This document shows positions 6,619-13,821 of a stretch of 64,000 nt of DNA, piece after piece. The position numbers were made by a program, and so were the translations under genes. Positions within the stretch are counted from its first letter, which is position 1. Every line of letters begins with the position of its first letter. This DNA is from Blastococcus haudaquaticus (GTDB lineage Bacteria > Actinomycetota > Actinomycetes > Mycobacteriales > Geodermatophilaceae): assembly GCF_900230285.1 (NCBI RefSeq), contig NZ_OCNK01000001.1:682001-746000 (forward strand), written 5' to 3'. Below the pieces are notes generated by a model. The model did no database searches and was not told the origin of the DNA. It saw only the letters and a program-made list of their open reading frames with translations.

Positions 6619-7416
6619 TCAGTTCTTCTTGGCGGGCACCGCGGTCGGGTCAACCGGCTTGGCCGAGCGGGCGCGGGTCACGCGCGCCGAGGTGGCCTTC
6701 GCCGGCGCCTTGCGCGCAGCCGGGGTGCTCTTCTTGGCCGGGGCGGCCTTGACGGTCGTCGACTTCGCGGTGACCGGCTTCGCGCCGGACTTCGCTGCCT
6801 CGACGGCCTTCTCCGCGGTCGCCTTGGTGCTCTCGGCGGCGTCCTCGACCTTGTCCTCGGCCTTGGCCGCGGCCTTGGTCGCCTTGGCGGCGGTCTTCTG
6901 CGCCACCGAGGTCACCTCGTTGGACGCCTCGACGACGGCCTCGGCGGTCTCCTCGAGGATGTCCTCGAGCGTGTCCTCGACGGTGTCGACGGCGCGCTCG
7001 GCCCGACGGACGACCCGACGGAAGCCGGGCTGCTGGCGCAGCTCCTCGACGACCTCGGCACCGCGCTCGGCCAGGGTGCCGACGGTGGTCAGCGCCTGGG
7101 TGCGAGCGGTCTCGACCAGGCCGGCGACGGTGCTGCGCAGCGCCTCCGGACGGGCGGCCACAGCGAGCTGCTGCGCCGTGGTGCGGGCGGTGCCGGCAGC
7201 CTCGGTGGCCCGGGTGCGGGCCTCCTTGACGGCGAGGTCGGCCTGCACCTGGGCCTCGCCCGGGATGGTCTCGGCCTTGGTGCGGAACTGCTCGAGCACG
7301 ACGCGGGCGCGCTCGACGGCCAGGTCACCGGCGCCGATCGCGGCGAGGACGGCGGGCTTGGCGGCGGCGACGGCGAACTCGCCGTACTGCTTCACGGTCT
7401 GGGTGGTGGTGGTCAT
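6619..7416 (-). CDS. hbhA: Heparin-binding haemagglutinin-like coiled-coil protein (HbhA)
   Basis: A 265-aa protein without signal peptide. Residues 1-190 are a long Ala/Glu/Arg-rich amphipathic helix region. Residues 190-265 form a Lys/Ala/Pro-rich tail with KKSTPAARKAPAKATS-type repeats. This is the mycobacterial HbhA architecture, in which the Lys-rich tail binds sulfated glycans; HbhA-like proteins are also linked to lipid inclusions. In a likely free-living organism, host adhesion is doubtful and an envelope, lipid or nucleoid role is equally possible. The start overlaps the upstream regulator's stop as ATGA. The order regulator-hbhA-DUF2516 equals Rv0474-Rv0476. Confidence 0.85.
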   Translation of the reverse strand: MTTTTQTVKQYGEFAVAAAKPAVLAAIGAGDLAVERARVVLEQFRTKAETIPGEAQVQADLAVKEARTRATEAAGTARTTAQQLAVAARPEALRSTVAGLVETARTQALTTVGTLAERGAEVVEELRQQPGFRRVVRRAERAVDTVEDTLEDILEETAEAVVEASNEVTSVAQKTAAKATKAAAKAEDKVEDAAESTKATAEKAVEAAKSGAKPVTAKSTTVKAAPAKKSTPAARKAPAKATSARVTRARSAKPVDPTAVPAKKN

Positions 7417-7946
7417 GCCGACTCCTTCGAGTTTCGGGGCTCTGCTGCGGGGCGGGAAGAGGCTGTGGGGTGGGAAGAGGTCTGGATCGCGGAACGGTGC
7501 TCGCGCACGTACGTCTCGTACAGCTCGAGCAGGACCGCCTTGTGGCGCTCGGACAGGCCCTCGTCCGACCGGATCGCCGCCACGGTGTCCGGGTTGCCGG
7601 ACCGCCGGTCGAGGATCCCGGCCTGCTCGTAGAGCGTCTCGGCCGAGATCTTCAGGCCCCGGGCGATCGACGCGAGGATCTCCGCTGACGGCTTGCGAAG
7701 ACCCCGCTCCACCTGGGACAGGTACGGGTTGCTGACGCCGGCCGTGCGGGCAAGCTCGCGCAGCGACACCCGGGCAGCACTCCGCTGCTCACGGATGAAG
7801 TCGCCGACCTGCGAGCTGACGGCCGAGACGCTGGGCGCCTCGCTGACCGATCCCGCGACCGACTCCGCCACACTGCCGGCCACCCGGTCCACCGTCGAGC
7901 GGACAGTGGTCACCTGCTCGCGGACGAACTCACCGGGCGTCTGCAC
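7413..7946 (-). CDS. XRE-family HTH regulator upstream of hbhA (Rv0474-like)
   Basis: A 177-aa protein. After an amphipathic N-terminal 45 residues comes an XRE/Cro-type helix-turn-helix at about 47-101: VSLRELARTAGVSNPYLSQ, then ERGLRKPSAEILASIARGL. A helical C-terminal part follows. Start chosen at the GTG at 7946, because a near-consensus promoter (TTGCAA, 17 bp, TAGGGT) would place the transcript start almost exactly there. It is translationally coupled to hbhA by an ATGA overlap, so it is likely the dedicated regulator of this locus and probably autoregulated. Confidence 0.88.
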   Translation of the reverse strand: MQTPGEFVREQVTTVRSTVDRVAGSVAESVAGSVSEAPSVSAVSSQVGDFIREQRSAARVSLRELARTAGVSNPYLSQVERGLRKPSAEILASIARGLKISAETLYEQAGILDRRSGNPDTVAAIRSDEGLSERHKAVLLELYETYVREHRSAIQTSSHPTASSRPAAEPRNSKESA

Positions 7947-8033: not shown

Positions 8034-9089
8034 TCAGTCCTGCAGGGCAGCGGCGGCCGGACGGATCTCGCCCACGACGCCGTCGCCCCCGGACACCGGG
8101 GTCAGCAACCACCGGGCGAGCACGTCCTCGGCCAACCCAAGCCGACGCAGCCCCGCCGACAGCGCCGGTGTCCGCCCGCGCTCACCGCCGTCGTCGATCT
8201 TCAGCGCGACGGCCCCGCGACCGGGCAGCGCCGCCACGTGCACGCCGTCCGCGCCGCCCTTGACCAGCAGCCCCGGTACCGCCTGCATCAGGTCGGTGTC
8301 CTCGCGACCGGTGCCGGCCACGAACCACGGCTCCGCGCGCATGGCGTCGGCCACCGCCCGCTCACGGGTCCCCTCATCCCCCTGCACCAGCGACAGCACG
8401 CCGCGCGCCAGCCCGGTCACCGAGAGCGCGTGCTGCGGCGCACCGCACCCGTCGACGACCACCGCGGTCACCGGCTCGCCGGCCGCCTCTGCCAGCCGCG
8501 CCTCGATCGCCTGCTGCAGCGGGTGGTCGCGATCCAGATAACCCGAGGTGGGCCACCCGGCCGCCACGCACGCCGACAGCATCGCCGCGTGCTTGCCCGA
8601 GCAGTTCATCGCCAGCCGCTCGGCGGCCCGGCCGGTGGCGATCCAGTCCGCCTTCGTCGCCTCGTGCTGCGGCAGGGCCGGCGGGCAGCCCAAGGCGTCC
8701 GGCCCCAGCCCGGCGGCGGCCAGCATGGCGGCCGCGACCTCGCGGTGACCGTCCTCGCCGTTGTGCGAGCCGGCCCCGATGGCCAGCTCGGCGGTGGACC
8801 GCGGCGACCAGCCGGCAGCCAGCAGCGCCGTGGCCTGCACCGGCTTGTTGGCCGAGCGCGGCAGGATCGGGCGGTCGACCGCCCCGGCGGCGAACGTCAC
8901 CTCTCCCGCGGCATCGAGGACGACCAGCGAGCCGCGGTGCGCCGACTCCAGGAACCCCGACCGCCAGACCTCGACGAGGACCGGGTTGTCCGGCCACCGT
9001 GACGACAGGACGTCGTCCGGTTGGGACCGGCCCCCTTGCAGAGCCCCACCGCGAGCCTGCGAGCCGTGGGGGGCAAGGGGGTCCTTCAT
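8034..9089 (-). CDS. Asparaginase (asparaginase II family)
   Basis: A 351-aa protein of the asparaginase II family (rhizobial AnsA type, unrelated to the classical type I/II amidohydrolases). Conserved blocks are VEVWRSGFLESAHRGSLVV, RPILPRSANKPVQATALL, GAGSHNGEDGH, NCSGKHAAML and VVVDGCGAPQHAL. The Ser/Lys of RSANKP and the NCSGKH block are the family's active-site signature. The ATG at 9089 overlaps the rsiG stop as ATGA. Residues 2-20 of this start are encoded by a GC-rich inverted repeat and look non-conserved, but there is no other in-frame ATG or GTG before the domain. Confidence 0.86.
   Translation of the reverse strand: MKDPLAPHGSQARGGALQGGRSQPDDVLSSRWPDNPVLVEVWRSGFLESAHRGSLVVLDAAGEVTFAAGAVDRPILPRSANKPVQATALLAAGWSPRSTAELAIGAGSHNGEDGHREVAAAMLAAAGLGPDALGCPPALPQHEATKADWIATGRAAERLAMNCSGKHAAMLSACVAAGWPTSGYLDRDHPLQQAIEARLAEAAGEPVTAVVVDGCGAPQHALSVTGLARGVLSLVQGDEGTRERAVADAMRAEPWFVAGTGREDTDLMQAVPGLLVKGGADGVHVAALPGRGAVALKIDDGGERGRTPALSAGLRRLGLAEDVLARWLLTPVSGGDGVVGEIRPAAAALQD
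9031..9081. repeat. Imperfect palindrome inside the asparaginase 5' end
   Basis: CCCCCTTGC (9031-9039) pairs with GCAAGGGGG (9073-9081), and inner CCCCAC pairs with GTGGGG. The loop contains a GCGAGCCTGCGAGCC direct repeat. It looks like an intergenic hairpin element rather than protein-coding sequence, yet it lies in the first 20 codons. Confidence 0.6.
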
Positions 9090-9649
9090 CAGTGGCGGCC
9101 CTCGTCGGCCAGCAGCGCGGCCACGTCGGCCTCGCCGTCCCGGTAGCGCCGGCCGAGCTCGGCGGCCAGCCCGTCCATCACCTGCTGCACGCCGCGACGG
9201 CGCTCCGACAGGTCGCTCTCGGCCTCGGCGAGCGCGCGGGCCGCCTTCTCCAGCTTGGCGTCGGTCAGCGTCTGGATTGCCGAGATGTCCACGCCCTTGG
9301 TCAGCGAGTTGACCCAGGACTCGTAGTCCTCGGGCGACTGCGGCTGGACCGTCTGGTGCCGGCCAAGGCCGTGCGCGGGACCGCGACCCTTCTCGGACAG
9401 GATCTCCGGGAGCAGGTCCATCAGGGAGCGGCCGTCGTCCTCGGCGCGGCGCTGGAGCTCGCGACGGACGATGTCGAGCCGGCCCTGGAGGAGCCGCCGC
9501 GTGTAGGAGAGGTTGACCTCCTGCTGCTCCGCCTCGCGGCGCAGTCGGCGGACCTCGGCCATGGGCTGGGTCGTCGCGTTCTCCAGGAAGGCGGGCTCGA
9601 GGAGCGCGTCGACGGCGGCACCCCCGGCGGCAGCAGGCTTCGGGCTCAT
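9089..9649 (-). CDS. rsiG: RsiG-type c-di-GMP-binding anti-sigma factor homologue
   Basis: A 186-aa, largely helical protein. It carries two complete copies of the E(x3)S(x2)R(x3)Q(x3)D signature that binds c-di-GMP in RsiG. Copy 1 uses E44, S48, R51, Q55 and D59 (EVNLSYTRRLLQGRLD). Copy 2 uses E144, S148, R151, Q155 and D159 (ESDLSERRRGVQQVMD). In Streptomyces, RsiG loaded with c-di-GMP sequesters the WhiG sigma factor, and related Rubrobacter proteins do likewise. No sigma-factor gene lies in this window. The ATG overlaps the BKACE stop as ATGA, and its stop overlaps the asparaginase start, placing it inside a five-gene coupled operon. Confidence 0.85.
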   Translation of the reverse strand: MSPKPAAAGGAAVDALLEPAFLENATTQPMAEVRRLRREAEQQEVNLSYTRRLLQGRLDIVRRELQRRAEDDGRSLMDLLPEILSEKGRGPAHGLGRHQTVQPQSPEDYESWVNSLTKGVDISAIQTLTDAKLEKAARALAEAESDLSERRRGVQQVMDGLAAELGRRYRDGEADVAALLADEGRH

Positions 9650-10485
9650 CGGGCTGTCTCCATCGGCTTGATGCCCAACAGGTCTCGGGCCTCGTCGGTA
9701 CTCATCGGCGGGCGCTGCGCGATCCGGGCGAGCCCGGCGGCGCGGGCCACCAACTGGGCGTTGTCGCGCACCGGCTCGCCGGGAGCGTAGGTCAGCGTGT
9801 CCTCCATGCCCACCCGCAGGTGCCCACCGGCCGACAGCGCGGCCAGCATCACCGGCAGCGACGTCCGGCCGACGCCCGTCGCGGCGAACGTCGCACCGGG
9901 CGGCAGGAGCGGGAGGCACGCGGTCAGGGCCTGCGCCGTCCCCGGCATGCCCCCGGGCACGCCCATGACCAGGTCCACGTGCACGTGGCCACCGTGCGGG
10001 AGCCCGTGCCGGTCCAGCAGGCGGGCCAGGGTCGCCAGCTGGCCGAGGTCGAAGACCTCGTACTCCGGCACGATGCCGCGCTGCTGCATCTGGGTGTGCA
10101 GCTCGACGATCAGGTCCCACGGGTTGGAGAACACGTCGCGGCCGAAGTTCACCGTGCCGAGCGTCAGCGACGCCGCGTCCGGCTCGGCGTCGAGGACGGC
10201 GAGCCGCGCGTCGAACGGATCGGTCACCGCGCCGCCGGTGGACAGCTGGACGATCAGGTCGGTGTTCTCGCGCACCGCGGCGACGACCTCGCGGACCCGG
10301 CCGAGGTCGAGGGTCGGCCGGGTGTCGGCGTCTCTCACGTGCAGGTGGATCACCGCGGCGCCGACGCGCTCGCAGTCGCGCGCGGTGGCCACCACCTCCT
10401 CCACCGTCACCGGCAACGCCGGGACGTCGGCCTTCGCCGACTCGGCCCCCGTGGGAGCGACCGTGAGAAGGGTGCCGTGCGTCAC
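9646..10485 (-). CDS. BKACE family (DUF849) 3-keto-acid cleavage enzyme
   Basis: A 279-aa TIM-barrel protein of the beta-keto acid cleavage enzyme family, which condenses a beta-keto acid with acetyl-CoA and splits it. Metal-ligand and active-site signatures are visible: AAVIHLHVRDAD (His-x-His for Zn), LIVQLSTGG, EYEVFDLGQL, and HVHVDLVMGVPGGMPG. The exact keto-acid substrate varies across the family and cannot be assigned. The GTG start overlaps the ygfZ stop as GTGA, and the stop overlaps rsiG as ATGA. Confidence 0.88.
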   Translation of the reverse strand: MTHGTLLTVAPTGAESAKADVPALPVTVEEVVATARDCERVGAAVIHLHVRDADTRPTLDLGRVREVVAAVRENTDLIVQLSTGGAVTDPFDARLAVLDAEPDAASLTLGTVNFGRDVFSNPWDLIVELHTQMQQRGIVPEYEVFDLGQLATLARLLDRHGLPHGGHVHVDLVMGVPGGMPGTAQALTACLPLLPPGATFAATGVGRTSLPVMLAALSAGGHLRVGMEDTLTYAPGEPVRDNAQLVARAAGLARIAQRPPMSTDEARDLLGIKPMETAR

Positions 10486-11573
10486 CGGCCGATCGTCGCA
10501 GACCGGACGGCCCGCACGCGCTCGCGCGCCGCGGCCAGGGTGTCGTCGGTCTCCGCGGGCGCGTCCTCCGGGTCGATGGCGGCGGTCGAGCCGGCGACGG
10601 TCAGCGCGGCGTCCATCGCGACCGACTGCTTCACCAGCGCGAGCGCGATCACGCCCAGCTCGAAGTGGCGGACGACGCTGCCCACCCGGCCCACCTCGCG
10701 CGCACCGGCGAGCACCGGGGTCCCCGGCCCGGCCAGCACCTCGCTGACGCCGTCCAGGTGCAGGAGGACCAGCCGTCGGGGCGGCCGCCCCAGGTTGTGC
10801 ACGCGGGCGACCGTCTCCTGCCCGCGGTAGCACCCCTTCTCCAGGTGGACGGCGGTGCGCAGCCACGGCAGCTCGTTGGGGATGGTGCGGTGGTCGGTGT
10901 CCACGCCGAGCCGCGGACGGCGCGCCTCCACCCGCAGCGCCTCGTAGGCCGAGACGCCGGCCAGCGACGCGCCGAGCCGGTCCGCCACCGCGCCGACCTC
11001 GGCCCGCGGGACGACGAGGTCGAACACCGTCGCGCCGCCGTCGCCGATCCCGGGCATGCGGCGGACAAAGCCCTGGTCCAGCGGGGCCACCGCGTACTCC
11101 GTCGCAGGCGCGGCCAGCCCGGCGGCGAGCAGGACGTCGGGCGCCGTCGGCCCCACGAGGCTCAGCACCGCCCAGGAGGCGGTGACCAGCGCGGGCTCCA
11201 CGCGGAGCATGAAGCGCATCTTCTGGAGAAACGCCTCCAGGGCCGGGCCGGTGCCGGCCTCGACGTCGACCCACGTCGTCCCTGCCAGGTCCGCGATCGC
11301 CAGGTGGTGCTCCACATGACCGTTCGGCGACAGCACCAGCGCCTCGCTGCCGGCTGCGTCGGCCAGGCGGTCCAGGTGCTGACTGGTGATGCTGTGCAGC
11401 CAGCTCAGCCGGTCGGCGCCGGGGATCTGCAGGACGTCGCGGTCGCCGCGGTCCACGAGCCCGGCGCCCTCGGCGAGGAGGCGCTGCTCGCGCAGTGGGT
11501 CGCCGTAGTGGGCGGCGATCGAACCGCCCTCCACGGGGACGGCGCCCGGGCGGGCGAGGAGGGCTGAGCTCAT
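10482..11573 (-). CDS. ygfZ: YgfZ/GcvT-domain folate-binding protein
   Basis: A 363-aa member of the YgfZ family, which uses tetrahydrofolate to help build or repair iron-sulfur clusters. The diagnostic KGCYxGQE motif is present as KGCYRGQE, preceded by LPWLRTAVHLE. The N-terminal half has the GcvT fold (LSWLHSITSQHL, LSPNGHVEHHL). It overlaps the upstream fur-family gene by ATGA. Pairing of YgfZ with a Fur-type regulator is common in actinobacteria and suggests metal or Fe-S control. Confidence 0.93.
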   Translation of the reverse strand: MSSALLARPGAVPVEGGSIAAHYGDPLREQRLLAEGAGLVDRGDRDVLQIPGADRLSWLHSITSQHLDRLADAAGSEALVLSPNGHVEHHLAIADLAGTTWVDVEAGTGPALEAFLQKMRFMLRVEPALVTASWAVLSLVGPTAPDVLLAAGLAAPATEYAVAPLDQGFVRRMPGIGDGGATVFDLVVPRAEVGAVADRLGASLAGVSAYEALRVEARRPRLGVDTDHRTIPNELPWLRTAVHLEKGCYRGQETVARVHNLGRPPRRLVLLHLDGVSEVLAGPGTPVLAGAREVGRVGSVVRHFELGVIALALVKQSVAMDAALTVAGSTAAIDPEDAPAETDDTLAAARERVRAVRSATIGR

Positions 11574-12034
11574 GAGGGGTGCTCCGATCCGGTGCGTTCG
11601 CGGCACGCGCGGCACGTCCCGGAGAGGGCGACGTGTCCCACGTCCACCGTGAAACCCAGATCGGCCGCCAGACGTTCCGCGGCGCTGTCGAGCAGGTCCG
11701 GCGCCGCGGACGCGATCTCGCCGCAGGACTGGCAGACGACGTGCAGGTGCGGGTGCTCGGCCGCGTGGTAGACCGGCGCACCCTTGCCGAGGTGGGTGTG
11801 CCACACCAGGCCGAGCCGCTCCAGCAGCTCCAGGTTCCGGTAGACGGTGGAGGTGTCGGGCGCGGTGCCGTCGGGCCCGGCCTCGTCGCGCAGCCGGGCG
11901 CCGATCGCCTCCGGCGTCGCGTGCTCCAGCGCAGTCACCGCGGCGAGGACCCGCTGCCGCGGAGCGGTCAGCCGCAGGCCACGGGCCCGCAGCCGCTCGG
12001 CGAGCGGAGCGGTGCTGTCCCGACTGTCGGCCAC
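11570..12034 (-). CDS. Fur-family transcriptional regulator
   Basis: A 154-aa metalloregulator. A winged helix ([31 protein letters not shown]) is followed by a metal/dimer domain: HHxH-like [14 protein letters not shown], and a second CRAC pair for the structural Zn. The subtype (Fur, Zur or PerR) cannot be read with confidence. It heads the coupled operon fur-ygfZ-BKACE-rsiG-asparaginase. The GTG start is preceded by TACCCT at leaderless spacing (6 nt). Confidence 0.92.
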
Positions 12035-13506: not shown

Positions 13507-13564
13507 AAATCCTCGTTGCCGACCCTCGAAATCGGACGTACTTTCGTCGTACACGAGAGAGGAG

Positions 13565-13615
13565 GTGGTCCGTAACTTGCAGAGCTACAGGACACGTGAG
13601 GTGGCTGTCCGCTAG
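13565..13615 (+). CDS. Possible 16-codon small ORF with extended Shine-Dalgarno
   Basis: GAGAGGAGGTGGTCC (13557-13571) is an almost full-length match to the anti-anti-SD of 16S rRNA (AAAGGAGGTGATC), far better than the ribosome sites of neighbouring genes. It runs into a short frame reading VVRNLQSYRTREVAVR, then TAG. The start could be the GTG at 13565, or the TTG at 13577, which is better spaced from the SD. I do not recognise the peptide. It could be a leader peptide, a ribosome standby site, or part of a small RNA. Confidence 0.4.
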   Translation: MVRNLQSYRTREVAVR

Positions 13616-13636
13616 CCGCCGTCCAGATGGGCCGCC

Positions 13637-13658
13637 CGTTCAGACGACAGTCTGAACG
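13637..13658 (+). promoter_or_regulatory. Perfect 9-bp hairpin after the small ORF
   Basis: CGTTCAGAC, loop GACA, GTCTGAACG. It lies 21 nt after the small ORF stop. No U tract follows, so it may be a structured RNA element, an operator or a weak terminator. Confidence 0.5.
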
Positions 13659-13821
13659 ACGGCAGATCGCCCGTCCGTCGAACGGCGGCGAGCGAGAACC
13701 GGACAGTCACCCGACCCCCGGGCCGCCGACATTTGTCCAGTCGGCCCGCGTGCAGCTCCCTTCCGGGGGAGCGCCGCGGAGCAGCCCGGGGGTTGTCCGT
13801 TCTCCGGGTAAGTTTCCTCCC

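Follow-up and report, generated by a model that had tools for sequence, protein, structure and literature searches.

The rsiG locus

The window (the whole stretch of Blastococcus haudaquaticus DNA analysed, 64,000 nucleotides of contig NZ_OCNK01000001.1) hosts on its minus strand a compact run of genes, among which one encodes a protein of 186 amino acids featuring two c-di-GMP signature motifs. The features of the locus are listed below.

8034..9089, minus strand: asparaginase II-type gene, overlapping the rsiG stop codon; conserved neighbour (PF06089, synteny)
9089..9649, minus strand: rsiG, twin-motif c-di-GMP-dependent anti-sigma factor, 186 amino acids (PF22802, PDB 6pfj, fold match)
9173..9220, minus strand: c-di-GMP motif 2, residues 144-159, second long helix (exact match; invariant in 25 aligned members)
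9335..9397, minus strand: linker loop, residues 85-105, joining the motif helices (nearly invariant in the family)
9473..9520, minus strand: c-di-GMP motif 1, residues 44-59, first long helix (exact match; invariant in 25 family members)
9646..10485, minus strand: BKACE-family gene, overlapping the rsiG start; variable neighbour (PF05853; missing from many family loci)
10482..11573, minus strand: ygfZ-like gene; conserved neighbour (TIGR03317 over cut-off, synteny)
11570..12034, minus strand: Fur-family regulator, at the head of the presumed operon (PF01475, synteny)

Start and stop codons overlap throughout the run from fur to the asparaginase gene, and co-transcription is therefore likely. 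The order fur-ygfZ-rsiG-asparaginase-XRE is the rule in 33 Geodermatophilaceae loci, where contig and gene finder show the region, and BKACE genes have been called in just part of these loci. Genes for Fur and YgfZ are found near rsiG also in three genomes of one genus of the same class (L151-L153), and the rsiG-asparaginase-XRE adjacency is found again in two genomes, L156 and L157, that do not belong to this class. Because synteny spans the family, the class and other classes, the neighbourhood is regarded as ancestral, and a role of RsiG read from its operon partners was rejected on this ground. The original prediction had described the operon as unusual and as a hint at metal or nutrient input. 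Neither point survives: the arrangement is conserved family-wide and partly in distant relatives, and a conserved neighbourhood with a variable BKACE gene gives no specific hint. It is accordingly highly improbable that RsiG mainly serves the operon, its level or activity being set by metals or nutrients acting via Fur, YgfZ, BKACE and asparaginase. The co-transcription suggested by the overlapping codons speaks for such a role, but the ancestral neighbourhood and a BKACE gene that comes and goes argue against it, as do the conserved motifs, which indicate c-di-GMP as the input.

An XRE regulator and, after it, an Ala/Lys-rich helical protein are encoded family-wide 3' of the rsiG-asparaginase pair (6619-7946 of the window, minus strand). 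They presumably resemble the mycobacterial Rv0474-hbhA pair; a Pfam type 3 secretion protein match in the same interval is probably low-complexity noise. On the plus strand, positions 13551-13801 match Rfam RF02471 (Ms_IGR-5, an actinobacterial small RNA) with 83.5 bits, the threshold being 45.

The 186 amino acid protein is a twin-motif RsiG

Twin-motif RsiGs are recognized by two E(x3)S(x2)R(x3)[Q/H](x3)D copies in one chain. As originally predicted, the pattern E(x3)S(x2)R(x3)Q(x3)D is matched without deviation by E44-S48-R51-Q55-D59 and, 100 residues further on, by E144-S148-R151-Q155-D159; the six frames of the window contain no other match to it. When the protein was shuffled 200,000 times, a single motif was found in 96 sequences and two motifs in none. 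The assignment to RsiG, also proposed from the start, is borne out by PF22802, the Pfam RsiG model (92.4 bits, cut-off 27, split over two stretches), by the fold described below, and by the best match among PDB sequences, which is the Streptomyces venezuelae RsiG (6pfj/6pfv; E 3e-24); Rubrobacter RsiGs are also among the best. The closest sequence relatives belong to Blastococcus and Geodermatophilus. Both motifs and the linker are nearly invariant in an alignment of 25 Geodermatophilaceae members; L047, a relative outside this alignment, carries an S-to-C change in motif 2. Twin intact motifs spaced by 100 residues being the norm in the Geodermatophilaceae, their perfection is not unusual in itself.

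The AlphaFold2 model, built on the family alignment and without partners, has a mean pLDDT of 82 and two long helices (residues 30-72 and 130-170), one motif lying on each; residues 87-98, modelled without the partners, fall below 50. Foldseek ranks three chains from the S. venezuelae RsiG-WhiG-c-di-GMP complex first (6pfv; E 4e-5, probability 1.0), and the fourth-ranked match has E >1. VIA-align superimposes 132 residues on 6pfj_T with an rmsd of 3.7 and Z 11.1, the best unrelated chain reaching Z 8.0. Since helical models easily reach middling Z values, the identification is carried by sequence and Foldseek. Further coiled coils listed by VIA-align, among them SH3BP5 and seryl-tRNA synthetase, were set aside as common helical arrangements, not relatives. 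The model has the two long motif-bearing helices of an antiparallel coiled coil, and the predicted fold matches the RsiG of the solved complex (6pfv/6pfj).

The protein is almost certainly RsiG. By homology and residue conservation, it very likely binds c-di-GMP and WhiG in the way its Streptomyces counterpart does. The linker loop is expected to contact both c-di-GMP and WhiG, by homology to S. venezuelae RsiG (PMC8325347).

Two sigma factors and the choice of partner

Two flagellar-clade sigma factors of note are encoded in the genome (4.51 Mb, 99.97% complete), both outside the window.

G000:C2:41235-41906: WhiG (WhiG equivalog over cut-off, S. venezuelae WhiG match)
C6:680459-681118: second sigma factor, in the flagellar cluster, adjoining flagellin (divergent FliA/WhiG-clade relative)

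A WhiG-family sigma factor, on which the original prediction hinged, has thus been found. It scores 392 bits against the NCBIfam WhiG equivalog (cut-off 343) and 315 bits against S. venezuelae WhiG, and its gene lies near rpsB-tsf-pyrH-frr-like genes. The flagellar-cluster sigma scores 152-153 bits, short of the 189.6 bits set as cut-off for the TIGR02479 subfamily, and stays below the cut-offs of the WhiG and FliA models too. The -35 helices of the two proteins are unlike each other, that of WhiG being the more classical.

In the Streptomyces complex, WhiG residues K57, G61 and R62 are reported to touch c-di-GMP (PMC8325347). Equivalents of all three are kept in 24 of 24 WhiGs of the family and in none of 21 flagellar-cluster sigmas; a c-di-GMP gate should therefore act on the former and not on the latter. 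This contrast is the strongest new mechanistic result of the analysis, and, as judged from these residues, the partner of RsiG is with good probability WhiG rather than the flagellar-cluster sigma. Direct binding and gating of the flagellar-cluster sigma by RsiG, besides or in place of WhiG, could be imagined, as both sigmas are members of the FliA/WhiG clade, but is very unlikely given that the contact residues are all missing. The presence of a second flagellar-clade sigma renders the connection between RsiG and motility more indirect. The genome hosts 32 GGDEF matches.

An orphan second flagellin gene is located far from the flagellar cluster (G000:C5:205011-205424; L092 9201-10430). The leader of the flagellin gene (5' of L088 9332-10165, G000:C6; also L082 and L083) includes a conserved hairpin, GCACGGATGC, whose loop carries GGA. 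The hairpin resembles a CsrA site, and the same cluster includes a CsrA-like gene (L088 14859-15134). Predicted folds of the flagellin leader contain the hairpin but are no more stable than those of shuffled sequences.

Flagellar-type promoters

The motif TCAAG-N14/15-GCCGA, counted when outside predicted genes and with a gene downstream, was found 18 times in the flagellar regions of 21 family genomes; 40 permuted motifs averaged 0.125 occurrences and never exceeded 1. Targets are the flagellar sigma, flagellin, a SwrD/FlbD-like small gene before the motor genes and an FlgN-like gene, and nearly all these promoters have the form CTCAAG-N15-GCCGA. Genome-wide, TCAAG with a short -10 box gave 54 matches, versus 49 in the reversed control; the motif alone is therefore mostly chance in coding DNA, and only the intergenic subset is informative. 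An early match in L148, preceding a sugar-transferase-like gene, is probably a chance occurrence and was discarded.

A second form, CTCAAG-N14-GCCGATA, gave 28 listed matches in 16 Blastococcus genomes versus 9 for the reversed control, the set being biased by the fixed -10 box with which it was found. Thirteen of the listed matches precede the cheB-cheR operon, as probably does one more; five are located before GGDEF or GGDEF-EAL genes and two before chemoreceptors, and the other seven are unrelated or coding. The N14 promoter of the cheB operon is present in most Blastococcus. In the genome hosting the window it is the only CTCAAG-N14-GCCGATA site, and in the flanks examined there is no CTCAAG-type promoter upstream of the GGDEF genes of this genome. 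Since the cheB site of L247 and the FlgN-like site of L139 break the spacer rule, the split between the two forms is strong, not absolute.

Classical WhiG promoters are essentially absent, the -35 element TAAA being replaced by CTCAAG in the promoters described here. TAAA-N14-16-GCCGAT has 0 matches in the genome, and TAAA-N15-GCCGATAA with one mismatch has five matches scattered over 16 genomes, one match lying before cheB.

The -10 element and the spacing of the cheB promoter are classical, and of the two sigmas it is WhiG whose -35 helix is the more classical. We therefore lean towards WhiG as the reader of the N14 promoter of cheB, though the flagellar sigma alone could read all CTCAAG promoters. 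The latter would be the case if RsiG gated a WhiG having an output other than motility (e.g. budding, envelope or stress), an ungated flagellar-cluster sigma serving every CTCAAG promoter. Several data are in keeping with this alternative: the flagellar-cluster sigma adjoins flagellin, its own gene has a CTCAAG promoter, as autoregulation predicts, its -35 helix is unlike that of WhiG, and CTCAAG is unlike the classical TAAA. Against it stand the two promoter forms, with different spacers, alongside two sigmas, and the searches for classical TAAA promoters, in which no other conserved set of WhiG type was found. All considered, the alternative is possible, yet rather doubtful. An explicit division of labour, WhiG at low c-di-GMP driving chemotaxis and c-di-GMP enzymes from N14 promoters, and a c-di-GMP-blind flagellar sigma driving the flagellum from N15 promoters, is itself put forward tentatively. 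If true, a single regulon would be divided between two related sigmas according to spacer length, and GGDEF/EAL genes would provide feedback.

Distribution of RsiG, WhiG and flagella

RsiG is scattered through the Actinobacteria, and its twin-motif form was reported in 16 of 16 Geodermatophilaceae (PMC8325347). An occurrence outside Streptomyces, as stated originally, is correct, but not new. RsiG was found here in 103 of 115 Geodermatophilaceae genomes (95 of the 99 of high quality) and in 194 of the 296 genomes sampled across the phylum.

In a set of 98 high-quality genomes of the family, 94 carry RsiG and WhiG together with the export protein FlhA, and the remaining four carry none of the three. 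The four fall in two genus groups, and the loss events are therefore few. The joint loss of RsiG, WhiG and flagella fits, if loosely, a link to motility. It also speaks against a WhiG devoted to functions other than motility; Streptomyces, which carries RsiG and WhiG and is devoid of flagella, speaks for it.

An incomplete relative of the four genomes, G072 (74% complete), lacks FlhA and keeps WhiG, and motif 2 of its RsiG-like protein (L219 1881-2366) is degraded; this protein is perhaps on its way out after the loss of flagella. In other lineages of the phylum, six RsiG-family matches were found in G222 (L159) and five in G174 (L154). Such match counts suggest RsiG paralogues; the published RsiG survey reported a second copy for one genome only. 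The Q of motif 2 is replaced by F or L in four distant genomes of the phylum (L155-L158), and D takes the place of E in motif 1 of the L155 and L158 homologues. These changes depart from the strong motif conservation stated in the literature.

A predicted c-di-GMP switch with a probable motility output

The data may be accommodated as follows. At high c-di-GMP, both motifs of the antiparallel coiled coil would bind a c-di-GMP dimer, and the loaded RsiG would capture WhiG, keeping it away from RNA polymerase. A drop in c-di-GMP would free WhiG, which may then act at chemotaxis, c-di-GMP-enzyme and flagellar promoters, either directly or via the flagellar-cluster sigma. Taken as a whole, this account, the known c-di-GMP switch having here motility, chemotaxis and c-di-GMP turnover as output, is considered likely. 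Several observations weigh against it: CTCAAG stands where TAAA is expected and classical WhiG promoters are essentially absent, the flagellar-cluster sigma could serve all these promoters unaided, the flanks examined contain no such promoter before the GGDEF genes of this genome, and few evolutionary events underlie the joint loss. That chemotaxis, flagella or c-di-GMP-turnover genes are included in the RsiG output, taken by itself, is reasonably probable. The original suggestion of motility rather than sporulation is upheld as the probable output by the flagellar-type promoters and by the co-occurrence of RsiG, WhiG and FlhA.

The best known counterpart is S. venezuelae RsiG (6pfj, 6pfv), a monomer having the same length, twin motifs, linker and fold as the Blastococcus protein, and about 40% identity over 150 residues. 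The WhiG orthologues of the two organisms share the c-di-GMP-contact residues. Streptomyces RsiG controls sporulation; Blastococcus, in contrast, is equipped with flagella and chemotaxis genes and encodes a further sigma of the flagellar clade. RsiG of Rubrobacter radiotolerans (7lq2-7lq4) has the same motif and the same expected c-di-GMP dimer, but is a one-motif homodimer controlling type IV pili, whereas the Blastococcus protein carries two motifs in one chain. WhiG promoters precede c-di-GMP enzymes in Rubrobacter as well (PMC8325347). Actinoplanes missouriensis is flagellated like Blastococcus, and several flagellar-clade sigmas control its flagellar genes (PMC8325347, PMC13293333). Since, according to the former, Actinoplanes has WhiG without RsiG, a c-di-GMP gate of the RsiG kind is missing there.

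RsiG-WhiG has been called the sole sigma-anti-sigma pair known to be a target of c-di-GMP, with spores in Streptomyces, and type IV pili and DGC/PDE genes in Rubrobacter, as known outputs; no output is named for the Geodermatophilaceae in the accessible text of the same paper (PMC8325347). WhiG function in simple, motile actinobacteria was called unanalysed in 2013 (PMC4255298), and a literature search found no paper on the subject for the Geodermatophilaceae. RsiG itself and its occurrence in this family are already known. New are the choice of partner between two sigmas, the two promoter forms with the candidate regulon, and the joint retention or loss with flagella. They suggest that Blastococcus RsiG controls chemotaxis, swimming and c-di-GMP enzymes rather than sporulation, and the promoter set and the two-sigma layout lend themselves to direct, cheap tests of the role of WhiG in ordinary motile soil actinobacteria.
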